From the NCBI RefSeq assembly GCF_029263665.1, contig NZ_JAJUFQ010000002.1, forward strand, positions 186,001-250,000: a DNA stretch of 64,000 nt, given 5' to 3'. Both the position numbers and the translations under genes were made by a program. The notes beneath the pieces are model-generated. The model ran no database searches. It saw only the letters and a list, made by a program, of their open reading frames with translations, and had not been told where the DNA came from. Every line of letters starts with the position of its first letter. Position 1 is the stretch's first letter. This document shows positions 8,424-28,136 of this stretch, in pieces. The DNA is from Halomonas sp. Lineage in GTDB: Bacteria; Pseudomonadota; Gammaproteobacteria; Pseudomonadales; Halomonadaceae.

Positions 8424-8449
8424 CAACGCCGGCCCGAGGGCCGGCGTTG
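8424..8449. terminator. Hairpin between convergent crc and rph
   Basis: CAACGCCGGCCC followed by GGGCCGGCGTTG forms a very stable GC-rich stem with a tight loop, followed by TCGTTTCC. It sits 45 bp after the crc stop and serves the plus strand; it could also end rph transcripts. Confidence 0.75.
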
Positions 8450-8489
8450 TCGTTTCCAGGGAGACATGAGAGAGAGGAGAAGGTGGCTC

Positions 8490-9230: not shown

Positions 9231-9396
9231 GGCACCTCACTTGGCGCCCACCACCGAGCACAGGAAGACAAGTCCATGGGGTGGTAGACAGGAAAATTGG
9301 CAATGGGCCGCCATTCTACCGCAATCATTCCCCGGGTAGGCCAGCCAATCAGGTAAACTGGCCATAACCCCGATTTTTTTCATTCAGGAGCCCGCC

Positions 9397-10260: not shown

Positions 10261-10280
10261 AGCTCCAACCCAGCCCAGGA

Positions 10281-10309
10281 AAACCCTATATTGCTGCAAT
10301 ATAGGGTTT
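10281..10309. terminator. Terminator after yicC
   Basis: Perfect 13-bp stem AAACCCTATATTG / CAATATAGGGTTT around a CTG loop, 20 bp after the yicC stop. A-tract before and T-tract after make it usable on both strands, serving yicC and possibly the SDR gene. Confidence 0.85.
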
Positions 10310-10384
10310 CTGCGCGGAGGCTTATCGGCTGCTCAGTGATTATGAGACAGAATACGCGCATTATCCTGAAACACAGGTAGTTAC

Positions 10385-11149: not shown

Positions 11150-12473
11150 TGGACTCCTCCAACTCTCCCGCAGGCTCACCGTAGCCAACCTCTTGCTTGC
11201 CATAGCGGCGAACACGAAGGTTGGCTTGCTCCGCATGACCCACAAAGCCTTCAAGCAGGCAGAGTCGGGAGCAGTATGCACCGATACTGGCGGCCGCCTC
11301 GTCGCTGGTGACTCGCTGATAGCTATGCGTTTTCAGGTATTTACCCACCCATAGTCCGCCGGTATATCGACCTGCCTTGCGAGTGGGCAAGGTATGATTG
11401 GTACCGATGACTTTGTCACCGTTGGCAACATTGGTGCGCGGACCAAGGAACAACGCGCCATAGGCCGTCATGTTGTCGAGGAACCAGTCATCACGATCCG
11501 TCATGACCTGGACATGCTCAGAGGCAAGATCATTAGCAACATCGAGCATCTCCTCGTAGCTGTCGCATACGATGACTTCACCGTAATCGCGCCAACTTAC
11601 CGATGCGGTTTCTGCGGTAGGCAGGATCTTCAGGATGCGCTCGACTTCGCTAAGGGTATCTTCTGCCAGTTGCCGCGAGTTGGTCACCAGTACAGCGGGC
11701 GAATCGTAACCATGCTCCGCCTGCCCCAACAGGTCAGTGGCGCACATTTCCGCATCGACTGTCTCGTCGGCAATGACCATGGTCTCTGTCGGTCCCGCGA
11801 ACAAATCAATTCCGACGCGTCCAAAGAGCTGACGCTTGGCTTCCGCGACAAAGGCATTACCCGGTCCTACCAACATGTGGACGGGATCAATGGTTTCTGT
11901 CCCCAGCGCCATGGCGCCGACGGCTTGAATGCCCCCCAGCACGTAGATTTCATGCGCCCCACCGAGGTGCATCGCGGCAATCACCGCGGGATTCGGTTCG
12001 CCATGAAATGGCGGTGTTGCTGCGACGATACGCGGTACACCCGCAACCGCTGCCGTTGCCACCGACATATGCGCGGAAGCCACCATCGGAAACTTGCCGC
12101 CGGGCACGTAACAGCCAACAGACTGAACCGGGATGTTCTTGTGGCCAAGAATGACACCGGGCAGCGTTTCGACTTCGACATCACGCATGGAGTCACGCTG
12201 AATCTGTGCAAACGCCTTCACCTGCTGCTGCGCAAAGCGAATATCATCCATCTGCTGCTTCGGAACCTTGGCAATCAGTTGCTCGATTTCCGAGTCCGAT
12301 AGACGAAAGCTCTCCGGCGAGTATTTATCGAACTTCTCCGACATCTCACGGACTGCGATATCACCGCGCGCTTCAATGTCGGCCAGCGCGGACTCGACCG
12401 CCTGCCGAGTGTTGAGATGATTTGTGGAGCGCTCGGCTTCGCTTTTGCCACGCTTGAGGTAGGTTACTGCCAT
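11136..12473 (-). CDS. HisD-like (histidinol/sulfopropanediol dehydrogenase family) enzyme, copy 1
   Basis: A 445-residue zinc-dependent NAD dehydrogenase of the HisD superfamily. The zinc and catalytic positions are kept: QAEH, the glutamate-histidine pair in [14 protein letters not shown], and the C-terminal EGFVGHAEQ. Other landmarks are [11 protein letters not shown] and [16 protein letters not shown]. No other histidine genes are nearby, and the paralog, aldolase and SDR context indicates catabolic oxidation of a polyol-type alcohol to the carboxylate, as for HpsN. ATG at 12473 with GGGAG; the track start upstream reads through tandem repeats. Confidence 0.8.
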
Positions 12474-12501
12474 GACGTCAACTCCCGGTGACTGCACTCT
12501 A

Positions 12502-12555
12502 TTTGTTGGATACTGATTATTCGTTGGATACTGGTTATTTATTGAATGCTGGCTG
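12502..12555. repeat. Imperfect tandem array, 3 x 18 bp, between aldolase and HisD-like copy 1
   Basis: Units tttgttggatactgatta, ttcgttggatactggtta and tttattgaatgctggctg. The third unit encodes the last codons and stop of the aldolase (minus strand), so the array extends from the gene end into the gap. Read in frame it gives the repeated NNQYPT seen in the track ORF. Confidence 0.85.
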
Positions 12556-13341
12556 GGTGGATATGTCGTTAGTCGCTGCCTGATCGGTAGCGGCCTGAAA
12601 ACGCTCAACCAATGCATCTGCACCCTGAGCCATGAGGGTATGGTCCGAGCCAACGACCATGAAACTGGCCCCTGCTGCCATCAACGGCTGCAAGTCTTCT
12701 CCTGGCGCACAATAAAGTCCGGTTGCCGCCTGTTCTGCACCAAGAATCTGTTGCACCTGTCCGACAATCTCCTCGGCGAAGAAGCTGTCATAGCCACTGG
12801 AAACAGCGAGATCCGCCCGGCCGATAAAGAGCGCATCCACACCGTCAACCGCGGCGATCTGCTGATACTCCTGCGCCCCCTCGACATCCTCGATCTGACA
12901 GATCAGGCAGGTTTCCTGAGCGGTATCACGCAGGTGTTCAGCAAAGGGACGGCGCCCATAGGATGCGGCTCGCGTGGTGCCAGCAAAACCGCGTCCACCA
13001 GGCCCATAGTGCATCGCTCTAGCCAGTTCTGCAGCCTGAGCTGCGGATAGCACGTGTGGCACGATGACACCGGCAGCCCCGCTGTCGAGCACCGCCAGCA
13101 GCCACTCAGGAGAGCCCGTCGGAACACGTACCAGCAGTGGGCATTGCACAGCACGGCCGGCGATCATCGCTGCATCCAGCGTCCCGCGATCAAAAGGTGC
13201 GTGTTCCATATCGAGTATCAGGAAGTCGAGACCGGACGCCCCCATCACTTCGATGATGATGGGGTGAGGTGTCTTGATGAAAGCACCAAGCAAAGGCTCA
13301 CGACGCTGAAGCCGCGACTTGAAATCGCCAAGAACATTCAT
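12535..13341 (-). CDS. HpcH/HpaI-family class II aldolase
   Basis: Metal-dependent aldolase of 268 residues related to 4-hydroxy-2-oxo-heptanedioate aldolase, which cleaves 4-hydroxy-2-oxo acids to pyruvate and an aldehyde. Visible are LDMEHAPF (catalytic histidine), [26 protein letters not shown], the metal-binding glutamate in QIEDVEG and the aspartate in [10 protein letters not shown]. The C-terminal 20 residues ([10 protein letters not shown]...) look like low-complexity extension, and the last codons fall inside an 18-bp tandem repeat. Its place between two HisD-like dehydrogenases suggests it cleaves the oxidised product; the true substrate is unknown. Confidence 0.85.
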
Positions 13342-13382
13342 GAGAAATCCCTAAGTGAAGGCAGGTCTAGAGCGCTGGGGAA

Positions 13383-13407
13383 CATTGCCTCCCGACAGGA
13401 GGCAATG
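13383..13407. other. Intergenic hairpin between HisD-like copy 2 and the aldolase
   Basis: Perfect 10-bp stem CATTGCCTCC / GGAGGCAATG with a CGACA loop and no T-tract on the minus strand. Inside an operon this may be an RNA-stabilising or attenuating element rather than a terminator. Confidence 0.6.
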
Positions 13408-13414
13408 ACACTAC

Positions 13415-13474
13415 GTATCAAAAGGTCAGGTATCAAAAGGTCAGGTACCAAAAGATCTCGCACCAGAAGATCAG
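13415..13474. repeat. Tandem array, 4 x 15 bp, at the HisD-like copy 2 stop
   Basis: Two identical units gtatcaaaaggtcag, then gtaccaaaagatctc and gcaccagaagatcag. The last unit contains the stop codon of HisD-like copy 2, so the array lies immediately 3' of that gene. Confidence 0.88.
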
Positions 13475-14793
13475 GCCCCGAGTCGATCCAGTCGAATCTG
13501 CGCCGCCCTGCGATGTCCTTCTAGGCCTTCACTGGCGCTCTGACGTGCGGCCGGCGGAGCGACCTGCTTGATCCCTTCATCCGTCAACCACTGATGGGTC
13601 GCGGTCTTGATGTAGGTTCCTACCCACAGACCACCGGTGTAGCGACCTGCCGCCATGGTCGGCAGCGTATGGTTGGTGCCGGAACATTTGTCGGAATAGA
13701 CGACACTGGCGGCCTCACCGATGAACAGTGAGCCATAGCTCGACAACTTTTCGGCGAGTGCTTGAGCGTCCTCGGTATGCACTTGGAGATGCTCGGCGGC
13801 AACATAGTCAGAATAGGCAATCATTGCCGTCTCGTCGGCGACCAGCGCAATTTCGCCATAATCCTGCCAGGCCGGGCCTGCGGTCTGAGCGGTCGACAGG
13901 CTCTCGAGCTGACGATCAACCTCGGCCAGAACGGCCTTCGCCAGGGCCTCGTCGGTGGTAATCAGTCCAACACGCGTTCTGACATCATGCTCAGCCTGGG
14001 CCAACAGGTCGGTAGCGATCAGCTCCGCATCACCAGTGTGATCGGCGAGAACGAAAATCTCAGAAGGTCCTGCCAACTGATCGATGCCGACGGGACCGAA
14101 GACCTGACGCTTGGCCTCGTTCACGAAGGCATTGCCAGGACCAACGATCTTGTCGACGCGCGGAACGCTCTGAGTACCAAATGCCATAGCGGCAATGGCC
14201 TGCGCGCCGCCGATGCGGAAGATACGATCGGCACCGGAAAGGTGGCAGCCCGCAATCATCGCTTCGTGGGCATTGGGCGGCAAACAGGCGATCACTTCGC
14301 CAACACCCGCTACCTTGGCCGGAACGATGGTCATGATGGGCGCCGAAAGCAGCGGATAACGACCACCAGGTACATAACAGCCCACACGCTCGATCGGAAT
14401 GTTGCGGTGCCCCATATGCACGCCCGGCAGGATCTCGACATCGATCTCCGACAGCGACCCGAGCTGCGCTTTGGCAAAGGTGCGCACATTATTGATCGCA
14501 AACTCGGTGTCCTTGCGCGTCTGGGGATCGAGATTGACAACAGCTCGCTCTCGTTCGCTATCCGTAACCTCGAAGGCTTCAAGATCGGCATTATCAAACT
14601 GACGCGAGAACGCTCTGACAGCGTCATCACCCTGTTCACGTACGCGTGAAAGGATGTCTGCCACCAGGCGCTCTACCTGTCCGCTATCGGCCCCAGCATC
14701 GCTCTTGGGTGCTTTGATGAAGTTCGGTTTCAGCGTCCCGGCCTCTTGAACAACCTGTGCCTCTTGAACACCAGCGGCCTGATCAATGCTCAT
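13471..14793 (-). CDS. HisD-like (histidinol/sulfopropanediol dehydrogenase family) enzyme, copy 2
   Basis: A second 440-residue HisD-family protein in the same operon, clearly a distant paralog of the one at 11136-12473. Zinc and catalytic positions are retained ([36 protein letters not shown]), with GCYVPGGRYPL and GPGNAFVNEAKRQVFG. ATG at 14793 follows GAGAAG; the track start at 14853 is unlikely because it would place a putative LacI-type operator inside the coding region. It has an N-terminal extension of about 25 residues without homology. Two such enzymes may act on opposite stereoisomers or on successive alcohol groups. Confidence 0.8.
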   Translation of the reverse strand: MSIDQAAGVQEAQVVQEAGTLKPNFIKAPKSDAGADSGQVERLVADILSRVREQGDDAVRAFSRQFDNADLEAFEVTDSERERAVVNLDPQTRKDTEFAINNVRTFAKAQLGSLSEIDVEILPGVHMGHRNIPIERVGCYVPGGRYPLLSAPIMTIVPAKVAGVGEVIACLPPNAHEAMIAGCHLSGADRIFRIGGAQAIAAMAFGTQSVPRVDKIVGPGNAFVNEAKRQVFGPVGIDQLAGPSEIFVLADHTGDAELIATDLLAQAEHDVRTRVGLITTDEALAKAVLAEVDRQLESLSTAQTAGPAWQDYGEIALVADETAMIAYSDYVAAEHLQVHTEDAQALAEKLSSYGSLFIGEAASVVYSDKCSGTNHTLPTMAAGRYTGGLWVGTYIKTATHQWLTDEGIKQVAPPAARQSASEGLEGHRRAAQIRLDRLGA

Positions 14794-14837
14794 GATTTCT
14801 TCTCTTGCAGGAGGATTTCCCTTATAAGTACCAAGCA

Positions 14838-14853
14838 TTGAATACGTTTTCAA
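14838..14853. promoter_or_regulatory. Candidate LacI-family operator upstream of the HisD/aldolase operon
   Basis: TTGAATACGTTTTCAA is a 16-bp palindrome with one mismatched pair and the central CG typical of LacI/GalR-family operators. It lies 45-60 bp before the ATG of HisD-like copy 2, and a LacI-family gene is adjacent. Confidence 0.55.
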
Positions 14854-15093
14854 TTTTGTTCTTAAAACATCGCCTACGACCTTAGCCTAACGAGACGATC
14901 ACAATATTATATATTTATGATAATCAAGGTTATTTTTGATAATGAGCGCCAACAAAGACACCGCATCATCCATTGCTTTCTAATGAATTCGTACCCAAAA
15001 AATTATGCAAAAGAATCATGCCCCCAGCAGCGTAGCCTGACTGCATGGGGAGCATTCGCAGGAAGCGAAGAGGGATATTTGGAAAGGGGGTCA

Positions 15094-15111
15094 ACAACCC
15101 CCAGGGGTTGT
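15094..15111 (-). terminator. Hairpin downstream of lacI-type gene
   Basis: ACAACCCCCAGGGGTTGT, an 8-bp stem with a minimal loop, about 35 bp after the regulator's stop codon on the minus strand. No clear T-tract. Confidence 0.5.
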
Positions 15112-15144
15112 CTCAAAAGTCGGCGAGCGATAGCCAGACAAGGC

Positions 15145-16152
15145 CTAGTCGCGAGTGGTGCCGCGCCGAACCAGAGTCGGCGGAATTCTCAGCTTGATCG
15201 GCAATGGCGTCTCGGGCTCTTCGATAGCAGTAATCAGCTCGGAGACCGCCTTGGATACCATCAGGTTGACGTGCTGACGAACCGTGGTCAGGTTGAAGCT
15301 GGGCCACGCCGCTTGAGGAACATCATCAAAGCCGACCACCGATACATCCTCCGGTATTCGCAGGCGGAACTCACTACGAATGACGTCCATGGCCGCAAAG
15401 GCCATATGATCATCGGTGACGAACAAGGCATCAGGCGGATCGGGGCGATCGAATAGCTCATGCGTGGCCTCGACCGCCTCGGCGTAATGAAAGTTACCAA
15501 CAGCGCGAGAGTGCAACTCCTGACCTCCCGCCTTGAGCTCTTCCAGAAAGCCGCGCTCACGTTCGATCTGAGTCGAAGCACCTTCGTAACCCGCTAGATG
15601 GGCAATGCGCTTTGGCCGTGAGGCAAGCAGTGCCTGGGCGGCAAGAGAGCCACCACGCAGGTTGTCAGTCGTTACCGCCATCAGATCCAGGTCCGGCTGA
15701 TCACGATTGAACAGCATCACCGGGATCGACAGATCGGCACAGCGCTGTGCCAATACCGAGGACATCGACACCGAAACCATGATGATCCCGTCGACTCGGT
15801 AATCCAGTATCTGCTGCATCACGGGCTTGACGTCACCGACAGTGCGCGAGGACATGAACAGGAGAACGTGATAGCCGCTCTCCTGCAGAGCAGCCGACAG
15901 CTTCTCGATGACTTCCGGGTAGAACTGGTTCTCCAGGTAATAGACCACCAGACCAATGATCCGGCTCTTGCCAGTAATCAATGAGCGAGCCAGAACGTTG
16001 GGGCGGTAGTCAAGCTCCTCTGCCGCCTTGCGAATCTTCTCTGCCATTTTGGCCGAGAGTGAAGCCCCCGGGGTAAAGTAACGTGATACCGCCGACTGGC
16101 TGACACCCGCATGGCGAGCTACATCCACCGAAGTTACGCTTTTACCCGCCAT
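15145..16152 (-). CDS. LacI-family transcriptional regulator
   Basis: The N-terminal helix-turn-helix VTSVDVARHAGVSQSAVSRY is followed by the hinge RPNVLARSLITGKS and a periplasmic-binding-protein-like effector domain (GFDDVPQAAWPSFNLTTVRQ). At 335 residues it is normal for the family. ATG at 16152 with GGAG six bases upstream; the track's first codon is a TTG. It follows the ABC ATPase gene after 56 bp filled by a tandem array and precedes the HisD-like operon, whose promoter region has a palindrome of LacI type. It probably senses the substrate or an intermediate of this pathway. Confidence 0.9.
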   Translation of the reverse strand: MAGKSVTSVDVARHAGVSQSAVSRYFTPGASLSAKMAEKIRKAAEELDYRPNVLARSLITGKSRIIGLVVYYLENQFYPEVIEKLSAALQESGYHVLLFMSSRTVGDVKPVMQQILDYRVDGIIMVSVSMSSVLAQRCADLSIPVMLFNRDQPDLDLMAVTTDNLRGGSLAAQALLASRPKRIAHLAGYEGASTQIERERGFLEELKAGGQELHSRAVGNFHYAEAVEATHELFDRPDPPDALFVTDDHMAFAAMDVIRSEFRLRIPEDVSVVGFDDVPQAAWPSFNLTTVRQHVNLMVSKAVSELITAIEEPETPLPIKLRIPPTLVRRGTTRD

Positions 16153-16162
16153 CAAGATCTCC

Positions 16163-16210
16163 GTTCATCAGTGCTCTTGTTCATCAATGCCTTTGCTCAT
16201 CAATGCTATC
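16163..16210. repeat. Tandem array, 3 x 16 bp, between ABC ATPase and lacI-type gene
   Basis: Units gttcatcagtgctctt, gttcatcaatgccttt and gctcatcaatgctatc. The last unit ends at the ATPase stop codon (minus strand), so the array lies directly 3' of that gene. Confidence 0.85.
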
Positions 16211-17306
16211 AAGTTGCCATTGCCAAGGGAGTGCTTACATCACTGCATTCAGCCGATGTATAAATGGCAGCCCCTGTCTCATGGTCGAAAAGCTTGCATA
16301 GCGAAGGATCGAGACGCGCCGAAACATCTGTGCCAATTCGAGCCCGAAAGTCCTTGGGAGCCTTGAGATTGACCAACTCGTTCGCGACTCGCACCGCCAC
16401 CATCGAAGAGTCCCCCAGCAACTCAAGGGTATAGATCGGAGCATTGATCTGCCCTTCCTTGGCAACCAGCTCGACATCCTCGGCCCTGAACCCCAGCGTC
16501 ACTTTGCCGGAAACCTCCGTGGGAAGCCCGTCAATGCGCATATTCTCTGCAGTGAAAATACCCTGCGAGATGTCACCACTGACAAGATTCATGGCGGGAG
16601 AACCGATAAAGCTGGCCACGAAGGTATTGGCGGGACAGTCATAGATCTCCGTCGGCGTGCCCACCTGTTGGACCACGCCTCGATTCATGACCACCACACG
16701 ATCCGCCAGTGTCATCGCTTCGATCTGGTCGTGGGTAACGTAAATGGTGGTGGTTTTCAGCCGATGCTGAAGATTCTTGATCTCCGCACGCGTTGTGACG
16801 CGTAGTTTAGCATCTAGATTGGATAGCGGCTCATCCATCAGAAACACCGTCGGCTCCCGAACAATCGCCCGCCCCAGCGCGACACGCTGACGTTGGCCTC
16901 CCGATAGCTCCGCCGGGCGACGCTCCAGCAATTCGGTCAAATCTACCATTTCCGCCGCTTCCATGATGCGTTCGTGATGCTCGTTTTTGGGCACCTTGCG
17001 CACTTTCAGTGGAAAGCGAATATTTTCGTAAACACTCAGGTTCGGATAAAGCCCATAACTCTGGAAGACCATGGCAATGTCTCGATCCTTGGGTTCAAGG
17101 TCATTTATGACACGATCCCCAATCAGAATCTCACCATCGGAGATACTTTCCAGACCTGCGATCATGCGCATGGTTGTGGATTTTCCACAACCTGAAGGCC
17201 CCAGAAGAACAATGAATTCCTGGTCGGCTATCTCGAGATTAAAATTATCGACGCCCACCACCGAACCCCAGCGCTTACATACATTCTTGAGATGAATACT
17301 GGCCAT
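16209..17306 (-). CDS. ABC importer ATP-binding protein (MalK/UgpC type)
   Basis: ATPase of a carbohydrate-type importer, 365 residues. Walker A GPSGCGKST (about 36-44), signature LSGGQRQRVALGRA, Walker B VFLMDEPLSNLD and the H-loop YVTHDQIEA are intact. A C-terminal TOBE-like regulatory region (TLGFRAEDVELV) follows. It starts 6 bp after the second permease, so it belongs to the SBP-permease-permease-ATPase operon. The substrate is probably the compound handled by the neighbouring HisD-like enzymes; this is inference from position. Confidence 0.92.
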   Translation of the reverse strand: MASIHLKNVCKRWGSVVGVDNFNLEIADQEFIVLLGPSGCGKSTTMRMIAGLESISDGEILIGDRVINDLEPKDRDIAMVFQSYGLYPNLSVYENIRFPLKVRKVPKNEHHERIMEAAEMVDLTELLERRPAELSGGQRQRVALGRAIVREPTVFLMDEPLSNLDAKLRVTTRAEIKNLQHRLKTTTIYVTHDQIEAMTLADRVVVMNRGVVQQVGTPTEIYDCPANTFVASFIGSPAMNLVSGDISQGIFTAENMRIDGLPTEVSGKVTLGFRAEDVELVAKEGQINAPIYTLELLGDSSMVAVRVANELVNLKAPKDFRARIGTDVSARLDPSLCKLFDHETGAAIYTSAECSDVSTPLAMAT

Positions 17307-17312
17307 GATTTC

Positions 17313-18203
17313 TTATCCTTTTACCGCGCCGGCGGTAAGACCGCTGACAATATAACGTTGGAAAAACATCACGAGCATGAACAGTGGCACGGTGGCTGAT
17401 ACCACCGCCGCAACCGCGTACATGATGGCCCCATCAGACTGTACAGTGCCGAGGAATGAGTTGATTTTTGGCACCATGGTCTGGTTGTCCTGGCTAAGCA
17501 GCATCGAAGTAACGGCAAAGTCGTTATAGGAGAGCAGGAAACTGAACAGCCCTGTTGTGATGACACCGGGCCACATTACCGGCATCACCGCCAGCCGGAA
17601 GGCCTGAAAGCGTGTGCAGCCATCGACCATTGCACTTTCATCGAGATCCTTGGGTATCGATAGGAAAAAGCTGTGCAACATCCACAAGGTAAAGGGCTGA
17701 TTGATAGCAACCAGCACGATGATGGAGGTCGGCAGCGCACCCCAGATATTCATTTCGAAAAACGGCATCAGGTAACCAGACACCAGCGTGATATGCGGCA
17801 TGGCTCGGAACACCAGCGCTGCAATCAATATCCAGAAAACATATTTCTTCCTGGAGCGTGATAACGCATAGCCGCCAAGCGTACCGAACACCAGGCTGAT
17901 GGCTGTCACACTCACCGTGACAATGGCTGTATTGAGGAATGCACGCCAGAATTCTCGATCAATCCAGGCACCCTCATAGCCATCCATGGTGAAGGCAGAG
18001 CCGGTCGCCTGAAGCGTCTTCACACCATAGAGAGCATTCTCCCAGGTTTGACGACTGAAGAAGTCCGCCTCTACCTTGAAGGACCCCCAGAGTGTCCACA
18101 GGAAAGGGAATGCTGCGACGACCAGCCATATCGCCAGCAGAGCAAAGGCAATGACTGACGTCTTGTTGCTTTTGGAGTCAGCAGGTGATGCCGCAATAAT
18201 CAT
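17313..18203 (-). CDS. ABC importer permease (MalG type)
   Basis: Inner-membrane permease of 296 residues with an N-terminal helix (IAFALLAIWLVVAAFPFLWTL) and the EAA loop that contacts the ATPase (DLDESAMVDGCTRFQAFRLAV). Six transmembrane helices are expected. The start overlaps the stop of the MalF-type permease by four bases. Partner of the permease, ATPase and binding protein in the same operon. Confidence 0.92.
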   Translation of the reverse strand: MIIAASPADSKSNKTSVIAFALLAIWLVVAAFPFLWTLWGSFKVEADFFSRQTWENALYGVKTLQATGSAFTMDGYEGAWIDREFWRAFLNTAIVTVSVTAISLVFGTLGGYALSRSRKKYVFWILIAALVFRAMPHITLVSGYLMPFFEMNIWGALPTSIIVLVAINQPFTLWMLHSFFLSIPKDLDESAMVDGCTRFQAFRLAVMPVMWPGVITTGLFSFLLSYNDFAVTSMLLSQDNQTMVPKINSFLGTVQSDGAIMYAVAAVVSATVPLFMLVMFFQRYIVSGLTAGAVKG

Positions 18204-19246
18204 GATGCGCTCCCATCAGGATTCTTTTGTTTGAAGCTGCGCCAGGTTCTCAGAAGAACGGGGATCAAGAGGATAACGACGCAGATAACGGTGAGTACTG
18301 ATGTCGATGCTGCCGATCCATAAAGCTTGTCGACCTGCCCATTCAAATCGTTGTAGATGGACCATGAAAGCGATGTCGCATTGGCTTCCGCAGAGAAACC
18401 AACAATAGGCTCGAAAATACGGAAATTATCCATCATCAATACCAACGCCAGGAAGGTTGTCAGTGGGAAAAGATGTGGAATTACAACATAGCGAATCCGT
18501 TCCCATTTACTGGCACCATCGATCATTGCGCTCTCCATAGTATCTTGCGGGATGGTCTGGAGGCCGGCGTAGTAGACGACGAAGGGAAAGGGCGCCATGT
18601 GCCATATCCCGTAAACAATCAATGTCACCCACGTCAACACAGGGGATGCCTTGAGCGACAGGTCTGGATCATTGAAGATGAACTGCAACGTAGCACCGAT
18701 GATGCCATTGGAGTTGATCATCCAGAATAATGTCAGTGAGCCAATCAGCGGCGTAACGATATAGGGAAGCAGTGAAAGAAATATCACTGGCCCCTTGATC
18801 TTCTTCGGAATATTGTTGACCGCCATGGCAACCAAAAATCCAACCATCATGGCCAGCGGCGTCGCAAAGAAGGTATAGGCGATCGTAAAGGAAAGTGCCT
18901 TGTAGAAAGGCAGGTTGTAGATACGTGATACAACCTCACCGGCACTTTCACTTTCTTCGAATATCTTGCTGATCTCATCGACGGCCAGGTGAGCACGATC
19001 AAGATAGGTTCCAAGCCCGTTGAACTTCCCCAACGGGGCCTCTTCCCTCAGTTCTTCTGTTATTGCTAAATCAATATGCGTTGTCTGCTCACAACCGAAG
19101 GGGCCACAGTTCTCCGCCAGGCTCAGCGCCTTGCCATGCTCGGTATAGAAGGATTGAACGATGATCGATCCTGTTGGCAAGACGATAAAAAGAAACATGG
19201 CCAGCAATGATGGCAACATGAATGAAAAGAAGCTGCGATGCGTCAT
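18200..19246 (-). CDS. ABC importer permease (MalF type)
   Basis: Permease of 348 residues with an N-terminal signal-anchor helix (LPSLLAMFLFIVLPTGSIIV), a periplasmic segment of about 100 residues, and the EAA motif (TMESAMIDGASKWERIRYVV) near the C-terminal half. The periplasmic segment between helices 1 and 2 (residues 30-110) is relatively long and contains two cysteines (NCGPFGCEQ) that could form a disulfide. It lies 96 bp after the binding protein and is coupled to the MalG-type permease. Confidence 0.9.
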   Translation of the reverse strand: MTHRSFFSFMLPSLLAMFLFIVLPTGSIIVQSFYTEHGKALSLAENCGPFGCEQTTHIDLAITEELREEAPLGKFNGLGTYLDRAHLAVDEISKIFEESESAGEVVSRIYNLPFYKALSFTIAYTFFATPLAMMVGFLVAMAVNNIPKKIKGPVIFLSLLPYIVTPLIGSLTLFWMINSNGIIGATLQFIFNDPDLSLKASPVLTWVTLIVYGIWHMAPFPFVVYYAGLQTIPQDTMESAMIDGASKWERIRYVVIPHLFPLTTFLALVLMMDNFRIFEPIVGFSAEANATSLSWSIYNDLNGQVDKLYGSAASTSVLTVICVVILLIPVLLRTWRSFKQKNPDGSAS

Positions 19247-19342
19247 GGGGCGCCTCTAGTAGCAAGATGGGGCGAAGTCATCAGTCGATGTCCGTCGTCA
19301 GCATTTGTTATCGGTTGCTGGTGCTGAGGGTTGGCGAGTTTT

Positions 19343-20584
19343 CTAATCTAGAAAGCCCGATGCACGAGCACTGGTTCGATAAGCCGCTTCAACGTCGGCC
19401 AGTGCCTGTTCTGCGCTTTCCCGCCCTTGCATGAAATCGGTCAATTCCGAACCGAGCGCGGCATGCATGATCCCCATGAATGGGTTCATCGGATAAGGGC
19501 GACCACCGCTGCTGATGGTATCAAGCACACCTTTTGCCCCCTCCGGCGCCTGGTAGCCCTTGATCAACCATGTTGCGGCGTTCGGGTGTTCATTGGCGAC
19601 GCTCGAGCGCATGCCATACATCATCGCCCGGAAGCTGGCTTCAGCATCCTCGTCAGAAACATTCTTCGCGATAGTGAACCCATCCCACCACAACGCTGCA
19701 GCAGGGATATCGTACCCACCCAGCGTAGGGGCAGGCGCAATCAGCGTCGCATCACTTATCTCCGGAGCTGCGCCATTGGGGTCAAGATGCGAGTTCACCA
19801 TTGATCCCCACTGATTGATGATCGCGACCTTGCCATCCAGATACAGCTTCTTGAGGTCATCAGCCGTCAGGGTCAAATACTCCGGCGGCATGTATTCCGT
19901 CATCTCCTTCATGAGCTGCAACACCTGAACGCCCTTGGGATTATTGATCGAGGGTTCAGCGCTGCCGGGCTCGAAGAACTGGCCGCCCAGGCCCAGGTAG
20001 TTGTTTACAAATTCATTTCCGAGATACCAACCGGCCTCATAAGCCGCCGCCAGCGGGTACTTCATGATCCCCGCTTCCTTGATGGTACGGGCCGCATTGA
20101 GGACTTCCTGGTATGTCTTCGGTGGTGGGATACCAAGATCACTCAAGATATCGCCGCGCATGAACAAGTGCTGACTATTGGCCATGAAGGCGATAGCAAC
20201 AGTCTTGCCGTCGATCTTGATCAACTGATCGGGCTTGAGATCCTGGCCATATTTCTCAACATACTCGTCGAGAGGTCTCACCAGCCCTGCAGACAGCAAC
20301 GGTGGTAATGTGTTGGTTGATACCATCGCAACACTATAGATAGCGGGGTCTATCGCCAGGGCTGAAACTTGAATGCTCTTGTGCTCAGTCGTCCTGTTGA
20401 TTCTGACATTTACCGTATCGGACACACATTGCCGGGCCTCATTCAGAACGACGCCCAATGAATCTATGTCATTCGACAGCACGCGTACCGAGCCGCTCTC
20501 GATACCACATTCGGCAGCAGCAAAATTTGAAGCGCATATCAGGGGTAAAAGGCAAACCGTCGCCAAGGCACATAATCTTGTCAT
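19343..20584 (-). CDS. ABC importer substrate-binding protein (extracellular family 1)
   Basis: Periplasmic binding protein of 413 residues with a signal peptide (MTRLCALATVCLLPLICASNFAAA, cleavage about residue 24). The mature chain has the family 1 features KTYQEVLNAARTIKEAGI, WGSMVNSH and WWDGFTIAKNVSDEDAEASFRAM. ATG at 20584 follows GGAG; the track start 93 bases upstream would bury the signal peptide. First gene of the importer operon. The family covers sugars, polyols and glycerol-phosphate-like compounds, so the ligand cannot be named. Confidence 0.88.
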   Translation of the reverse strand: MTRLCALATVCLLPLICASNFAAAECGIESGSVRVLSNDIDSLGVVLNEARQCVSDTVNVRINRTTEHKSIQVSALAIDPAIYSVAMVSTNTLPPLLSAGLVRPLDEYVEKYGQDLKPDQLIKIDGKTVAIAFMANSQHLFMRGDILSDLGIPPPKTYQEVLNAARTIKEAGIMKYPLAAAYEAGWYLGNEFVNNYLGLGGQFFEPGSAEPSINNPKGVQVLQLMKEMTEYMPPEYLTLTADDLKKLYLDGKVAIINQWGSMVNSHLDPNGAAPEISDATLIAPAPTLGGYDIPAAALWWDGFTIAKNVSDEDAEASFRAMMYGMRSSVANEHPNAATWLIKGYQAPEGAKGVLDTISSGGRPYPMNPFMGIMHAALGSELTDFMQGRESAEQALADVEAAYRTSARASGFLD

Positions 20585-20823
20585 GATATTATCTCCCTCC
20601 AGATCGTGCCGGATCATTCGGATATTTATATTTTTTTGCCTGCCAGCTTTTAGTCTGGCAATTCTTGTAATGTGCACAACGCAATTGATTCAGCAGCCCG
20701 ATTCACTCAACAATGCTGCTGATCCGTCATTTTTTACTTAACAACGCTATTCTTCTGAAGGCTCTGTTGGCTTGACAGCGTCTTTTTCCAGCCGTTTTAT
20801 TATCCAAGCTCTTTGATCCAGAA

Positions 20824-20861
20824 GCGCCTGACCGGGCCAACATTACAGGCCCGGCGTGGCG
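20824..20861. terminator. Hairpin downstream of the SnoaL-like gene
   Basis: GCGCC-TGA-CCGGGCC paired with GGCCCGG-CGT-GGCGC, a two-part stem with a 9-base loop just after the SnoaL-like stop (minus strand). No T-tract, so termination strength is uncertain. Confidence 0.55.
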
Positions 20862-20868
20862 CATTTTC

Positions 20869-22035
20869 TCAAGGCTCGGCAGGTGCATCAGCCAGTTGGG
20901 CAAGTTTGATCTGAACCAGCATCGACAGCTCGTCATAGACCGTCCACTCATCCACGATACGGCCCCCCCTGTAATGATAATGAGAGATACCCATTACCTG
21001 GACGCGTTTGCCCGTCGGATCACCAAAGCTTTCGATGCCGCCATAACCGAGGTGATGACCTTCCATGACCCAGCGTACGGCAACCTTTGTCCCGCCTTCG
21101 ACGCAAGGAACAGAGCAGATGTGCTGAGGTTCGAAGCGTGCATCAGGAAGTGATCCGACCAAGCCAATCACTTGATGGGTCACGGCATGAGTGCCGTACA
21201 GTTCTTTCATCAACGGGCCGTGATACATGACAGTTGGCGCGTAGACTTGGCGAATCTTACCGAACATCTTGCGGTTCCAGACATCGTGCAACCACTGCAA
21301 TGTCTCGCGCTCGATATCATTATTGGCAATCGACAGATCGGCATGCTCGGCCGGCGGGTACTGGCCCAGCATCAGCCCGTTCTCACCGATATCAAGCGCC
21401 TTGACACCTTGCGCAAGCTTGGTGCTGGCGATCTTCTCGGCATATGCCTGAGGGTCGAGCCCCAGTTGCTGGACGATGGCCATCTGATCCGCAACGACCC
21501 ACTCACGATAGATCTTGTTCTCGAAGATCATGCAATCGGCAACGGTTCTCGAAGTGAACGGCTTGCCATTGGCCGGGCCAAAGTGACCGTTCTGTGTATA
21601 GCGGCCGGAGCCTGTGACCAGATGCGAGGTGTAGAACCCGTCCTGATCATTACCGTTCCAGATCACCTGTGTGGCCATACCACGGCGCTCAGGAAAACTC
21701 ACCAGCCGCTGGATGGTGTCACGTACGACGTCCTCGCGGTTATACATCGTGCCCATGGTGCCGTAGAGCACGCAGTTATTGGTGTAGTGGGTATAGATGA
21801 GTCCCACATCACGCTCATCCCAGATCTTGTGGGTGCAGCGAACGATGTAATCGACGATATCGGTGTAGCAATCATCGAACCCCTTCAGAGACTGTGAGCG
21901 CGGACGACTGTCGCTGACCAGATCCACGAAATCCAGACGCTCGCTCTGCAGCACCTGCTCGCTGGGTGCTGCCTTGGGGCGAGACGGAGTAGCCTCCTTC
22001 GGAGTCGCAACTGTCTCTTCTTGTTTACTGGCCAT
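20869..22035 (-). CDS. Tandem SnoaL-like (NTF2-fold) protein of unknown function
   Basis: 388 residues from the ATG at 22035 (AAGGA upstream); the track start is 57 codons too early. After a charged, proline-rich leader (about 40 residues), two SnoaL/NTF2-like domains follow: IVRCTHKIWDERDVGLIYTHY and, in the second half, WLHDVWNRKMFGKIRQVYAP with HHLGYGGIESFGDPTGKRV and ISHYHYRGGRIVDEWTVYDEL. This fold serves in polyketide cyclases, dehydratases and binding proteins, so activity cannot be assigned. It is divergent from the bicupin operon and lies beside the importer, suggesting a shared pathway. Confidence 0.75.
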   Translation of the reverse strand: MASKQEETVATPKEATPSRPKAAPSEQVLQSERLDFVDLVSDSRPRSQSLKGFDDCYTDIVDYIVRCTHKIWDERDVGLIYTHYTNNCVLYGTMGTMYNREDVVRDTIQRLVSFPERRGMATQVIWNGNDQDGFYTSHLVTGSGRYTQNGHFGPANGKPFTSRTVADCMIFENKIYREWVVADQMAIVQQLGLDPQAYAEKIASTKLAQGVKALDIGENGLMLGQYPPAEHADLSIANNDIERETLQWLHDVWNRKMFGKIRQVYAPTVMYHGPLMKELYGTHAVTHQVIGLVGSLPDARFEPQHICSVPCVEGGTKVAVRWVMEGHHLGYGGIESFGDPTGKRVQVMGISHYHYRGGRIVDEWTVYDELSMLVQIKLAQLADAPAEP

Positions 22036-22348
22036 GATTCCTTCCAATGTTTGCAAATTTAGGCTGGCGTGCCACCGCAAAATGGCATGCACTGCATAAG
22101 TATGCAAATATTTTTCCTTCTCTTCTACCAAGGTATTATTCCGCCATATATCAGTAAACATGATGCTATCTGGCGGATCATCGGGAAGAAGCACGATACG
22201 CGCCAAGCGTCTTATTCAAGAATTTGTTGAAAATATCTGACTACGTATTCATTCTGAGGTAATACAAGCTCAATGCTTTGCCGCCACGACAACAAACTTG
22301 CTTCGTGACAACAAACTTTCTTCACGACAACAACAGGGAGCATCCGCA
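22036..22348. other. 313-bp divergent promoter region, SnoaL-like / bicupin
   Basis: Contains both start regions and the 3 x 19 bp array at 22285. No LacI-type CG-centred palindrome was seen here, unlike upstream of the HisD-like operon. No gene seen. Confidence 0.55.
22285..22341. repeat. Tandem array, 3 x 19 bp, ending at the bicupin ribosome binding site
   Basis: Units cacgacaacaaacttgctt, cgtgacaacaaactttctt and cacgacaacaacagggagc. The array multiplies the A-rich element ACAACAA, and the last copy AACAACAGG abuts the GGGAG site. This resembles a Crc/Hfq AANAANAA target. Confidence 0.8.
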
Positions 22349-23320
22349 ATGACTCTGAGCCCAGAACAGATGGAGGCGCGAATCGTCCGCTATGGCGATC
22401 TGAAGCCCTGCCGCAGCGCTTTCATCGACGCACATACTCCTGGCTCTAATCAGAAGGAAAACTTCACCATCGTCGGCGGTGGCGTGAGTGAAAGCGCTGA
22501 CCAACATGTTCACATCAGTGACACGCCTGGCTTCAACATTGGTGCCGCAGGACAACCACCGAAATGCCTCAACAGCCTGCATACCCATCGCACTGCTGAA
22601 GTGTTCTTTGTTCTCAGCGGTCGTTGGCGCTTCTTCTGGGGGCGCTTTGGGGACGCGGGGGAAGTCGTGCTGGAAGAGGGCGACATCATTAATATCCCGA
22701 CCGGCATCTTTCGTGGCTTCGAGAATATCGGCACCGACTACGGCATGATCATGGCGATTCTCGGTGGTGACGATGCCGGAGGCGGCGTGGTCTGGGCACC
22801 GCAAGTCATCGAGGACGCCAAGGAGCATGGTCTGGTACTTGGCGAGAACGGCAAACTTTACGACACCAAGGCTGGCCAATCACTGCCGGAAGGCGTGCAG
22901 CCGATGCCGCTTCTCACCGAATCGGAGTTGGTCCAGTACCCGGAACTTCCGGTAAGCGAAGTGGTACCCCACTATGTCGCTCGCTACTGGGACCTGATGG
23001 CCCTGGCATCCAGCGGCCCCGCCAAGGTCATCGGTGAAAATGCCCTGCTGCGTGACAAGCCCGGCTTCGAGGTCGAACTGCTGACGAGAGGCTCTGTTTC
23101 CACACAACCCGCCAGCAGCGATCAGCATGAAATACTGATGGTGATGCGAGGGCACTGGAAGCTGAGCTGGCAAGGCGGCACCAAGGTATTGGCCCCCGGT
23201 GATACCTGCGCGATCCCCCCTCAGTTGGCCTATGCCATCGAACCTTCGATGAGCGGAGAAGCCAGTCTCTACCGGGTACGCTCCACTGATGATCCGGCAG
23301 GCCCAACATGGCAAGGCTGA
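22349..23320 (+). CDS. Bicupin protein (gentisate-dioxygenase-like fold)
   Basis: 323 residues with two cupin barrels. Cupin motif 1 in the first domain is HTHRTAEVFFVLSG (H-x-H-x3-E), and motif 2 is EGDIINIPTGIFRGFEN, where the usual histidine is an arginine. The second domain (QHEILMVMRGHWKLSW, APGDTCAIPP) lacks the paired histidines. ATG at 22349 with GGGAG ten bases upstream. It overlaps the hydrolase gene by 13 bp and leads the bicupin-hydrolase-amidase operon. It could be a dioxygenase or isomerase with one metal site; the substrate is unknown. Confidence 0.75.
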   Translation: MTLSPEQMEARIVRYGDLKPCRSAFIDAHTPGSNQKENFTIVGGGVSESADQHVHISDTPGFNIGAAGQPPKCLNSLHTHRTAEVFFVLSGRWRFFWGRFGDAGEVVLEEGDIINIPTGIFRGFENIGTDYGMIMAILGGDDAGGGVVWAPQVIEDAKEHGLVLGENGKLYDTKAGQSLPEGVQPMPLLTESELVQYPELPVSEVVPHYVARYWDLMALASSGPAKVIGENALLRDKPGFEVELLTRGSVSTQPASSDQHEILMVMRGHWKLSWQGGTKVLAPGDTCAIPPQLAYAIEPSMSGEASLYRVRSTDDPAGPTWQG

Positions 23321-24030
23321 ATCCGCAGCAATCGTGCCCTCCTCTGCTGATGCTTCCCGGCATGATGTGCGATGCTCGCCTGTTCACGCCACAGATTGCG
23401 GCGCTTTCTGCCGGGCGCAGCCTGATGGTGCCGGATTTGAGCGGCGAGAAAAGCATCGCAGCACTAGCGGAAAAAATCCTTGATGAGGCGCCGCCACGCT
23501 TTGCACTGGCAGGGCTTTCCATGGGCGGGATCGTTGCCATGGAAATGCTCGCTCAGCAGCCAGAAAGAGTAGCTGGAATCGCGTTGATGAATACCAACCC
23601 TCGCGCCGAACTGCCAGAGGTTCGCGCAGGTCGCGGACCGCAAATCGAAGCTGCGCATCAAGGACAGATGCTCGCGCTGATGGAAGAACGCATGTTTCCG
23701 CTTTACAGCGCCAGTGGTGATCCATCGATCTCCGCTATCGCACGAGATATGGCGGCATCACTCGGGCCAGAGGCCTTCATTCGCCAGTCGCTGGCCCTGC
23801 GTGACCGTGAGGATCTCAGCGACGTGCTGCAACGGAGCCATATTCCGACCTTGATCCTCGGCGGGCACAACGATCTGTTATGCCCGCCTGAACGGCATGA
23901 ATACATGGCGTCGCTGATGCCACATGCAAAGCTGGTGATGCTCGCAGAAACAGCACACCTGTCGACACTGGAGCGGCCGGTCGAAACGTCTGCCGCATTG
24001 AATGAATGGCTGGAGACGTTGCATGACTGA
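23308..24030 (+). CDS. Alpha/beta hydrolase
   Basis: 240 residues with the nucleophile elbow AGLSMGG (S71), an oxyanion-type LPGMMCDARLF near the N-terminus, the acid region LILGGHNDLLCPP and the catalytic histidine in AETAHLSTLE. It resembles carboxylester/lactone hydrolases of the MhpC-like type. The start lies inside the bicupin gene, and its end overlaps the amidase start by eight bases, so it is translationally linked to both. Confidence 0.8.
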   Translation: MARLNPQQSCPPLLMLPGMMCDARLFTPQIAALSAGRSLMVPDLSGEKSIAALAEKILDEAPPRFALAGLSMGGIVAMEMLAQQPERVAGIALMNTNPRAELPEVRAGRGPQIEAAHQGQMLALMEERMFPLYSASGDPSISAIARDMAASLGPEAFIRQSLALRDREDLSDVLQRSHIPTLILGGHNDLLCPPERHEYMASLMPHAKLVMLAETAHLSTLERPVETSAALNEWLETLHD

Positions 24031-25390
24031 ACTTCTCGACCTGAGCATCCGTGAACAACTGCATGAGTTGAACGCAGGGCACACCACGGCACAAGAGATG
24101 CTGGATGCAACGCTTGAGCGTATCCAGGAGCGAAATCAACGCCTGCGTGCCTATGTTCACATTGATGAGAGCGGGGCCAGAGCTCAGGCACAGCGCATCG
24201 ACCAGTTGCGGGCCGCCGGGTTGGATACGGGGCCTCTGGGCGGTATTCCTGTTGCGCTCAAGGACCTGATCAATGCCAAGGGACAGCCAGGATACTGCGG
24301 TTCTCATGCGTTTGATTCCAAACCAGCAGAGCACGATGCCGAGATCGTTGCTCGACTGCGCGGCGCCGGGGCCATCGTGCTCGGCAAGGTGGCCACCTAT
24401 GAGTTCGCCTTGAATGGCCCTACCTACGATCAGCCCTATCCGGTAGCACGCAACCCGTGGAACCTTGAGCATATTACCGGAGGCTCCTCCTCGGGCAGCG
24501 CCTCAGCCGTTGCTGGCGGTACCGTCAGAGCGGCGATCGGAACCGACACTGGGGGCTCGGTCAGAAGCCCGGCAAGCTATTGCGGCATTGTTGGGCTGAA
24601 GCCCAGTGCCAACCGCTTACCGCTCGATGGTGTCTTCCCGCTCTCGCAGTCTCTCGACACCCTCGGCGTACTGGCCAAGTGTGTCGATGATGCCGCCTTG
24701 TTGCTCGATGCCATGTCGGCCCGGCAAGGCCAGGAGGCTGCCGCCAGCCGCATCAACCAGCCTGTCTCGGGGCTGACGGTCGGCTACGCGCGTAGTTGGC
24801 TGACCGACGATCCGCACACGCACCCAGCCGTTATCGAACTGCTCGACGCCGCCGCATCCAGCCTGTCACTACTCGGCGTGCGGATAGCCACCGTCACCAT
24901 GCCAGACTATCCCGCCATCGAAGAGACCGGGCGCATCATCCTGCTGCACGAAGCGTTTCTGAACCACCAGCACGCATTGGAAGCACGCGGACAGGACTAT
25001 GGAAAAACGACCCGCGAGGTATTGAGAGAAGGAGAGACCATCAGCACGACGGAACTCAGCCTGGCTCGTGAGGCGGCTCTGCGCCTGCGAACCGAGATTG
25101 ATGAAGCACTTGGCGAGAGCGGCATTATCATGACCGCCACCACACTCGGCCCCGCTCCACCGCTGGGCGATGGTAAAGCCGCCTGGACCCCGATGCGCAC
25201 CATCCCGTTCAACATTACCGGCCACCCCGCTATCAGCATCCCATGCGGCTTCATCGGTGGCTTACCTATCGGATTGCAATTCATCGGGCGCCATGGCGAC
25301 GAAGCCAGCCTCTGTCAGCTCGCACATGCCTTTGAGCAAAACACGCTGCATTCCGTCCAGCACCCACCAATGTGGGATAGAGATTATTGA
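24023..25390 (+). CDS. Amidase-signature-family hydrolase
   Basis: 455 residues from the ATG at 24023 (GGAG upstream, eight-base overlap with the hydrolase). The Ser-cisSer-Lys triad is visible: K80 in VALKDLINAKG, the GGSSSGSASAV loop (S155-S157), and the nucleophile S179 in IGTDTGGSVRSPAS. Typical end GLPIGLQFIGRHGDE. It is similar to GatA-type amidases but not part of a GatCAB set. It probably releases ammonia or an amine from a pathway intermediate. Last gene of the bicupin operon. Confidence 0.88.
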   Translation: MTELLDLSIREQLHELNAGHTTAQEMLDATLERIQERNQRLRAYVHIDESGARAQAQRIDQLRAAGLDTGPLGGIPVALKDLINAKGQPGYCGSHAFDSKPAEHDAEIVARLRGAGAIVLGKVATYEFALNGPTYDQPYPVARNPWNLEHITGGSSSGSASAVAGGTVRAAIGTDTGGSVRSPASYCGIVGLKPSANRLPLDGVFPLSQSLDTLGVLAKCVDDAALLLDAMSARQGQEAAASRINQPVSGLTVGYARSWLTDDPHTHPAVIELLDAAASSLSLLGVRIATVTMPDYPAIEETGRIILLHEAFLNHQHALEARGQDYGKTTREVLREGETISTTELSLAREAALRLRTEIDEALGESGIIMTATTLGPAPPLGDGKAAWTPMRTIPFNITGHPAISIPCGFIGGLPIGLQFIGRHGDEASLCQLAHAFEQNTLHSVQHPPMWDRDY

Positions 25391-25672
25391 AAGGCGCTTT
25401 ACTGGAAAGCTGAAAAATTACCACACAGTGTCGTCACGTACTGTTTCTATTCTTCGCCCACTTATCAAATTAACAACAAGTCAATAGCACATTAAGCGCT
25501 ACCAAATATCTCTCTAAGAAAGGAGCCGTATAACCCTAGAAGCCCAACACTCTCACTAATATATGCTCGTACAATAAAGCACAGCGCGCAGCACTACTTT
25601 ATTCATAAAAACAAACTCTCCTTGGCAAAACAGGCCAGCGGAGATTAACCAACATCATCTCAAAGGAACACA

Positions 25673-26749
25673 ATGAACAACATAACAAAATTCCTGGTGA
25701 TAGGAAGCCTTTCTGTCGCAAGCATACCCACCGCCCTTGCATTTAACCTCTATAAGGATACCGATACAGAGCTATCTTTCAGCGGGCGTCTTCAAGCGAG
25801 ATACAACACCTACCAAGACGGCAGTAACATGTGGGATACAGGATCTACTCGCTGGGGACTTTACGCCAAACAGGGCATCAACGACGACCTGGATATCATT
25901 GCAGGCTCCGAATGGACGGTAACAGCCAATGAGGACAATTACGATGACGATCCTCATGTGCACCAACGCCTTCTTTATGCAGGGCTTGACCATGCAAGGT
26001 ATGGGAAGCTGATCTTCGGGCAACAATTGAGCGTCGTGTGGGACGTTGCCTGGTGGTCAGACATGGGAATGAATTATGGCAGCCGGGCATTCGGTATTTA
26101 TAACTATGCAGACTTTGGAGAAGCCAGCGGCACAGGCCGAGGGGAAAAAGCCCTTACCTGGCGGAAAGACTTTGGCGACTGGACGCTAGGCCTGCAGTAT
26201 CAAGGAGAGCGTACAGATACCAAACTTGCTCAAGGTGTGAAGGCGAATTTGGGGGACGGAGGGGGAGCATCGCTACGCTACTCATTATCTGAGAACATCG
26301 AGATCGGCACTGCTTATTATCAAAATCGCTATGACAATGTCACCCCTGGCCATGGTATCTCTGCAGGTGACGATGCCCAGCTATGGCTCGCAGGCTTCTT
26401 GTATACTGATGACAACTGGCATGTAGGGGCGACACTTGCACACAGCAACAACTGGGAGATGTCAGAAAGTGGGCAAATTTTCGATGCTCAAGGCGTCCAA
26501 GCGTATGTTTATCGGCATTTTGACAATGGGATAAGGCCAACCTTCAACTATAACTGGCTGGAAGATAGAGATGGACGTAGCGAGGGTGAAAAACGCCATA
26601 CCTACATCTACGGCCTTGAATATCACTTTGAGCGTGACAAATTCCTGGTGTGGGCAGAGTACCAGAACAACCACGGCACCAGCTGGAATGGCACCAGCTA
26701 CGAAGATAGTGACGATGAATGGACAGCAGGTATTCGCTATTACTTTTAA
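25673..26749 (+). CDS. Outer-membrane general porin
   Basis: 358 residues with a signal peptide (MNNITKFLVIGSLSVASIPTALA) and alternating beta-strand pattern through to a C-terminal aromatic RYYF, the outer-membrane insertion signal. Features such as ELSFSGRLQARYNTY and YGLEYHFERDKFLVWAEY fit OmpC/OmpF-like trimeric porins. It has its own upstream region of 282 bp and a strong terminator. It probably lets small hydrophilic substrates of the neighbouring importer cross the outer membrane. Confidence 0.85.
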   Translation: MNNITKFLVIGSLSVASIPTALAFNLYKDTDTELSFSGRLQARYNTYQDGSNMWDTGSTRWGLYAKQGINDDLDIIAGSEWTVTANEDNYDDDPHVHQRLLYAGLDHARYGKLIFGQQLSVVWDVAWWSDMGMNYGSRAFGIYNYADFGEASGTGRGEKALTWRKDFGDWTLGLQYQGERTDTKLAQGVKANLGDGGGASLRYSLSENIEIGTAYYQNRYDNVTPGHGISAGDDAQLWLAGFLYTDDNWHVGATLAHSNNWEMSESGQIFDAQGVQAYVYRHFDNGIRPTFNYNWLEDRDGRSEGEKRHTYIYGLEYHFERDKFLVWAEYQNNHGTSWNGTSYEDSDDEWTAGIRYYF

Positions 26750-26803
26750 ATCAAGGTCCATATAAGAGTCGAAGCGCCTCGGAGCACCTCGCAGAACGGG
26801 CAC

Positions 26804-26838
26804 GAGGGAGGGGCAATGCAGTTCCTCCCTCCTTTTTT
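26804..26838 (+). terminator. Rho-independent terminator of the porin gene
   Basis: GAGGGAGG / CCTCCCTC stem with a 12-base loop followed by CTTTTTT, 55 bp after the porin stop. Confidence 0.9.
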
Positions 26839-27398
26839 CAACTGAAAGAATACAGGGTAAGAACTTAAAACGCCCACAGAGCTTCTAGCTCAGCCGCTGT
26901 CATATCGCTTCTTATGTAACAGATGCGCGAACAGATTCAGAATATTGAGTGATCGTTTCTGGTCCAGACATTTAGCAGGAAAAGCACTCATCAGGACAAC
27001 ACCTCGTCTATGGAGTGGGCATGCGCCCAGTCGGCAACTCTGGCTCGGCCAGGCCCTGTTGAACCTCGATGGCAGAAGCAGAGCATCGGATCATAAGCCA
27101 GCAATATAGAAACATTTATGTCCAAAATCTGCATGAAATAACATGTTTAGACATTATTGTGTCCAAAATACTATTCCGATGCCGAGTCGCTTCCAGGAAT
27201 GGTCGTGCAAATTCTTCACCACATTTCGTACATCAGCATCAGGCCATGCCTACACACCTTCTGGCGTGGGCCTGATATCGTAGAGTCTGGATCAGCGGTC
27301 GTTAGCCCGTGTGCTGCTACCGCGCAGTCCAAAGTACTGCAGTTATTTCATGAATCTATGATTGTCAGTTGGATAAAATAAATTTCAAGGGAATTGAA
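26839..27398. other. Gene-poor junction between the catabolic block and the AT-rich lipoprotein
   Basis: 560 bp without a credible gene. It holds the yicC 3' fragment at 26918-26952, then about 200 bp of ordinary composition, then an increasingly AT-rich stretch leading into the lipoprotein gene. It looks like a junction of two insertions. Confidence 0.6.
26918..26952 (+). pseudogene. Fragment of a yicC 3' end (last 11 codons); right att-like repeat
   Basis: Encodes QMREQIQNIE-stop, identical in protein to the end of the intact YicC but with three silent base changes and TGA instead of TAG. The homology begins two bases before that reading (30 of 33 identical over 26918-26950) and stops at the stop codon. 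Same orientation as yicC. It is either a remnant of a displaced yicC or an attachment site carried by an element that integrates at the yicC 3' end. Confidence 0.75.
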
Positions 27399-28136
27399 AT
27401 GTATAACTTTAAAATTTTTGCATTTTTATTTTCAGCAATAATCTTATTATCTGGGTGTGCTAATAAGCAACCTAATGTGCCAATGGAGAAAACTTTCTGG
27501 AGCCAAAAAGAGGAGCGGATTGGTATTGGAATGAATAGAGCCCCTACTCCTGGATATTACAAAGTTGGTGCACAAGGGTTATTGGACATGGCGATCAATA
27601 GCGCTGTAACATCAGAGCTTGGAGAAGCGGTGAAATCTTGGAATTCACCAGATATTGCTATGCTCGCAAATGAGATAAAAGAAGACCTTGAAGATAAAGG
27701 CTATCATAACGTTTCTATCATCTCTCAATCACTAAAACATGATGACTTCAAACCTTTCGATGGTTATAAAGAAGGGTATTCCGATATAGATCTAAGTCCG
27801 TTGAAATCACGCTACAATATTGACAAGCTTGTTTTGCTTACTATAGGAAGTAGCGGAATATCACGTAGCTATTATGGTTTCATACCTACTTCTGATCCAG
27901 CTGTATTTGTTAATTATGGTGGCAGTGTTATCGATCTTGATGACAATCGTTATATTTATTTCAAACATGGAGTTTCTCATCAGGCCATAGAAGGCGAATG
28001 GGATCAACCACCTGAATTTTCAAATTTGAAAGCTGCATATAATTCTGCTGTTGAAAAAGCTTTGAATCAACTTGCACTGCCTTACCGTGTATCAGAAAAC
28101 GCATTGTCTCAGTCGGAAAGCTTGAGCCTGCAATAA
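27399..28136 (+). CDS. AT-rich orphan lipoprotein, unknown function
   Basis: 245 residues from the ATG at 27399 (AAGG upstream). The N-terminus is a lipoprotein signal with lipobox LLSGC (cysteine at about residue 20). The mature part has two regions, one around LANEIKEDLEDKGYHN and one resembling a beta-rich fold (KLVLLTIGSSGISRSYYGF). No family recognised. Base composition and codon use are much richer in A+T than all neighbours (for example aataatcttattatct), indicating recent transfer. It lies directly after the yicC 3' fragment. Confidence 0.8.
   Translation: MYNFKIFAFLFSAIILLSGCANKQPNVPMEKTFWSQKEERIGIGMNRAPTPGYYKVGAQGLLDMAINSAVTSELGEAVKSWNSPDIAMLANEIKEDLEDKGYHNVSIISQSLKHDDFKPFDGYKEGYSDIDLSPLKSRYNIDKLVLLTIGSSGISRSYYGFIPTSDPAVFVNYGGSVIDLDDNRYIYFKHGVSHQAIEGEWDQPPEFSNLKAAYNSAVEKALNQLALPYRVSENALSQSESLSLQ

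Follow-up and report, generated by a model that had tools for sequence, protein, structure and literature searches.

Genomic islands at the 3' end of yicC have been reported in Vibrio, Escherichia, Salmonella, Aeromonas, and Pokkaliibacter (PMC4207636, PMC8409611), which bears out the statement, in an earlier note on the DNA studied here, that mobilisable islands of Vibrio integrate at this site. The yicC-type islands of Shewanella have 21-bp att repeats (PMC8978831). The available portions of the literature on Halomonas, yicC, and genomic islands describe no such island. The window analyzed here is a 64,000-nucleotide stretch of a Halomonas genome (G000, C8:186001-250000) that lies within a 335-kb contig, and in it a block of catabolic and transport genes separates yicC from a second copy of the yicC 3' end.

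The islands MGIVflInd1 and MGIVmi1 (PMC8409611, PMC4207636) resemble the window in integrating at the yicC 3' end, with attL on the gene side, attR at the distal end, and the target gene kept, but they carry int and transfer functions, neither of which was detected in the window block. The SGI1-like yicC elements IEEcoMOD1, IESenUSA1, and IEPplInd1 (PMC8409611) share the window's target site; they are, however, 22.8-26 kb long and carry an integrase and the conserved genes mpsA, traG, traN, and sgaC, whereas the window's cargo is only catabolic and transport genes. GISpuPO1, GISspANA3, and GI21 of Shewanella (PMC8978831) are likewise of the yicC type and are bounded by short direct att repeats, which measure 21 bp in GISpuPO1 and GISspANA3, yet they have int and xis and their excision was shown, while the window's repeat is 35 bp. 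Within the genus, the integrase-bearing yicC islands of 17 genomes match the window in site and geometry, including a distal displaced yicC end in six of the ten examined, and differ from it in having an integrase of about 400 aa adjoining yicC and cores of 21-27 bp. Gammaproteobacterial islands at the yicC 3' end are a known kind of element, to which the window block adds an integrase-less example.

The features of the locus are given below; G066 is the closest relative found, and G029 is a relative with the same cargo at another site.

9397-10260, plus strand: yicC, the intact target gene (287-aa ORF; homologues in 54 of 58 relatives searched)
10226-10260, plus strand: probable attL, the substitute yicC 3' end from the island (differs from the G066 yicC where the second copy agrees)
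10261-10382, no strand: left margin of the island, not part of the shared cargo (unmatched in G066; homology to the G029 cargo begins at 10383)
10281-10309: near-perfect 29-bp palindrome AAACCCTATATTGCTGCAATATAGGGTTT next to attL on the island side, which may be a terminator or arm site
10385-11161, minus strand: SDR-family dehydrogenase (Pfam adh_short_C2)
11136-12653, minus strand: HisD-like dehydrogenase 1 (Pfam Histidinol_dh; ~80% aa identity to Rhizobium plasmid proteins)
12535-13341, minus strand: HpcH/HpaI-family aldolase (Pfam)
13471-14853, minus strand: HisD-like dehydrogenase 2 (Pfam Histidinol_dh)
15145-16155, minus strand: LacI-type regulator (Pfam LacI and Peripla_BP_3)
16209-20677, minus strand: ABC importer with ATPase, two permeases, and solute-binding protein (Pfam ABC_tran, BPD_transp_1 twice, SBP_bac_1)
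20869-22206, minus strand: SnoaL-like protein in two matched stretches (Pfam SnoaL; alphaproteobacterial homologues up to 81%)
22298-25390, plus strand: double cupin, alpha/beta hydrolase, and amidase (Pfam)
25673-26749, plus strand: outer-membrane porin (Pfam Porin_1)
26918-26952, plus strand: probable attR, the displaced original yicC 3' end (BLAST, shuffles, G066 comparison)
26953-27173, plus strand: native downstream flank of yicC, as in G066 (79-84% identity to G066 directly after yicC)

The two copies of the yicC end lie on the plus strand at 10228-10260 (the last 33 bp of yicC, CAGATGCGTGAGCAGATTCAGAATATCGAGTAG) and 26920-26952 (CAGATGCGCGAACAGATTCAGAATATTGAGTGA), and both encode QMREQIQNIE followed by a stop. 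The earlier note had described a 33-bp second yicC end in the same orientation and with its own stop, and its coordinates and description are right; it had also put the identity at 30/33 with only silent changes, which holds except at the stop. Read in the codon register through the stop, the two copies are identical at 28/33 positions, and the BLAST register, which starts two bases earlier and pairs 10226-10258 with the second copy, gives 30/33 (91%). The codon differences (yicC/second copy) are CGT/CGC, GAG/GAA, ATC/ATT, and TAG/TGA; the sense changes are indeed all synonymous, but the stop codon differs by two bases. Homology to yicC begins at 26918 (AACAG...), with identity further upstream at background level, and the repeat spans 35 bp and has a sharp edge. 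Longer homology upstream of that position, which the note had named as a sign of a decayed paralog, is absent, and the second copy is therefore not the end of a longer decayed paralog. Dinucleotide-preserving shuffles of the window give an expectation of 0 matches, and these two are the sole occurrences of the motif in the 4.69-Mb genome. Extra copies of the motif (at most 3 mismatches) were found in 4 of 90 genus genomes, always downstream of yicC on the same contig and strand, and a reversed control pattern had no matches in the same 90 genomes. Apparent second copies were discounted as chance or assembly duplication in G190, where the match is poor and on another contig, and in both G266 and G290, where the copies are identical and close to contig ends.

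The relative G066 has ~90-94% nucleotide identity to the window over 2940-10259 and then over 28250-64000. Directly 3' of its yicC stop it reads TCGTTCCTGGTTCAGGCC...CACCTCGTCTATGGAGGTGGGCATGCGCTCAGTCGGCGACTC, and the window 3' of the second copy reads TCGTTTCTGGTCCAGAC...CACCTCGTCTATGGAGTGGGCATGCGCCCAGTCGGCAACTC; these align at 84% over 142 bp, a stretch that takes in the repeat, and at 79% over another 133 bp. The DNA 3' of the window's own yicC stop, by comparison, had no match at the G066 locus. When the block is removed (9397-10227 joined to 26920-27173), a single continuous 970-bp alignment to G066 results, at 91.8%. This flank and the block-removed alignment together identify the second copy as the original end of yicC (attR) and 10261-26919 as an insertion. 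The search for the motif in a relative lacking the block, proposed in the note, finds an unoccupied site with the predicted junction in this close relative, which keeps one junction with the native flank directly after yicC. The displaced copy and the G066 yicC also agree at two sense positions, against the window's own yicC, so that, of the CGC/GAA/ATT ending that the note expected in some genomes, G066 has CGC and ATT. The further suggestion that the element carried a substitute 3' end was correct in that the element brought one; that end, however, now sits on yicC, and it is the host's own original end that stands at 26920.

We consider it probable, at roughly 85%, that a genomic island entered the chromosome within the last ~35 bp of yicC through site-specific recombination and that the two copies are its attL and attR. 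An incoming circle with its own version of the yicC end would have left yicC intact (attL, 10226-10260) and pushed the host's original end, together with the native downstream DNA, to 26918 (attR), 16.7 kb downstream. We infer that a tyrosine integrase catalyzed the insertion and that its gene was later lost, if it was ever carried. The note had likewise read the repeat as the att site of an island, and the empty site in G066, an integrase family found only at yicC, and islands with the same arrangement all support this. Against it, the block lacks an integrase, and the window's core of 35 bp exceeds the 21-27 bp of the integrase-bearing islands, and for this reason we do not assign the block to the integrase class of the genus; moreover, the same cargo in G029 adjoins a tRNA-Arg, not yicC.

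The yicC end is an integrase target in the genus. A Phage_integrase scan of 16 relatives placed integrases close behind yicC in many of them, and ten yicC-adjacent integrases, when compared, formed one family at 78-100% identity plus a G011 member at ~40%. A genus-wide search with the G084 member retrieved 17 matches in 90 genomes, and every one of these 17 copies lies 79-375 bp after the yicC stop on the same strand. The protein contains Arm-DNA-bind_3, Phage_int_M, and Phage_integrase domains. The six distal yicC ends lie at ~27.4 kb in G011, 31.6 kb in G096, 33.5 kb in G058, 38.7 kb in G033 and G086, and 46.0 kb in G065, each island having a sharp shared core; for the islands of G067, G073, G084, and G015, no convincing distal yicC end was present in the DNA fetched. 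Together with the empty-site comparison, these counts (an integrase-bearing island in 17 of 90 species genomes) mark the yicC end as a recurrent chromosomal entry point in the genus. The interval between yicC and gmk ranges from 51 bp to 82 kb, with a median of 7.4 kb, in the 74 genomes with both genes on one contig.

Two genomes, G017 and G018 (L053:5658-6940), have a 1.25-kb sodium/bile-acid-symporter segment between yicC and a degenerate second yicC end, with no integrase, and in G018 a third yicC end follows after another 6.5 kb. It is conceivable, if unlikely, that the yicC-gmk interval is a cassette-like landing zone in the family, to which integrase-less segments, each ending in a yicC 3' end, would be added by integrases acting in trans or by gene-end recombination, building arrays like the three yicC ends of G018.

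No integrase, excisionase, tRNA, or recognisable remnant was found in the block, and the position inside the element adjoining attL has no cognate tyrosine integrase. A tblastn search with the yicC-adjacent integrases (E<=1e-3) found no remnant in the window, and a lenient search (E<=5) with three of them found none at the block ends. Elsewhere in the genome there is no member of the yicC-integrase family that could act in trans, and Pfam detected no mobilisation genes among the 14 cargo proteins. The remark in the note that no integrase gene is visible thus holds by both Pfam and tblastn, and because neither an integrase nor a remnant was detected, the block looks immobile. Integrase loss is plausible by analogy with two precedents: G110 keeps only ~45 residues of an integrase, immediately after yicC, and in G289, which belongs to a different genus of the family, a 1.8-kb segment bearing hipA runs from yicC to a second yicC end. 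In the Shewanella island GI21, a hipA-hipB pair adjoins attR (PMC8978831). An att signature of this kind is of practical use, as it finds integrase-less islands that integrase-based island finders overlook.

The earlier description of 10.26-26.92 kb as a catabolic set agrees with the Pfam matches to dehydrogenases, an aldolase, an importer, a hydrolase, an amidase, and a porin. Most cargo genes have homologues clustered within 20 kb in Marivivens, Mesobacterium, Tropicibacter, and other alphaproteobacteria, and by these similarities the cargo is a gene cluster of the uptake and catabolism type that is otherwise common in alphaproteobacteria; an entire cluster of alphaproteobacterial type has been placed at the yicC end. 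An NCBIfam scan of the cargo assigned no specific pathway, and the gene content suggests that a small polar carbon compound is taken up and oxidized. Among the 90 genomes, the whole block is present only in G000 and, at another site, in G029, where a colinear copy of the cargo (C1:4636588-4652857; L138, L139) matches window 10383-26788 at 80-88%. That copy has the same orientation, is ~7 kb upstream of yicC, and abuts the 3' side of a tRNA-Arg(CCG); the same tRNA-Arg lies ~11 kb upstream of the yicC stop in the window's genome. No duplicated tRNA-Arg 3' end was found around the G029 cargo and no att repeats are visible there, and we therefore rejected the idea that it too is an att island. The two neighbouring cargo sites may be two hotspots or the product of local rearrangement.

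These neighbouring sites keep alive, at low probability, an alternative history in which the cargo first lay upstream of yicC, as in G029, the segment from the cargo through rep to yicC was duplicated in tandem, and deletions then put the cargo behind yicC and reduced the second yicC to a 35-bp stub. The position and orientation of the G029 copy are what this history would start from, but several events are needed, and the stub should be of arbitrary length, yet it ends inside the region targeted by integrases in other genomes of the genus. The flanks of the G029 cargo, furthermore, share no sequence with the island ends here, and G066 is without the cargo on either side of yicC; we regard such a history as quite improbable. 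Homologous (Campbell-type) integration, with no integrase, of a circle or of transformed DNA that bore the cargo and part of yicC is also very doubtful: the sharp-edged repeat, at just 35 bp, is short for homologous exchange, and it falls at a site proven to be an integrase target in the genus, although the integrase-less second yicC ends of G018 and G021, with longer decayed homology (roughly 45-100 bp), suggest that events of this type may happen here. Explanations by chance similarity, by a decayed paralog of yicC, or by an assembly artefact are scarcely credible, having nothing in their favour beyond the absent integrase, while the shuffles, the lack of yicC homology before the second copy, the native yicC flank after it, and the position of the region inside its contig all speak against them.

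Several observations concern the surroundings of the island. Near yicC, where the window has the island, G066 has other genes (L092:80-11677), namely genes for type I restriction-modification, for a DUF3800 protein, and for a protein of 2023 aa that combines DUF4011, AAA, and MTES_1575 nuclease domains, which together are a probable defence island. Between the native flank of attR and the shared TctA gene, the window has a 255-aa gene with a lipoprotein-like start (27369-28136), which had no Pfam match and lies in the lowest-GC stretch of the window (41%). The remainder of the yicC-gmk interval (28250-55875) contains two TctA/TctC transport sets, a racemase, a peptidase, and LysR regulators, and its variability between relatives suggests several older insertions.
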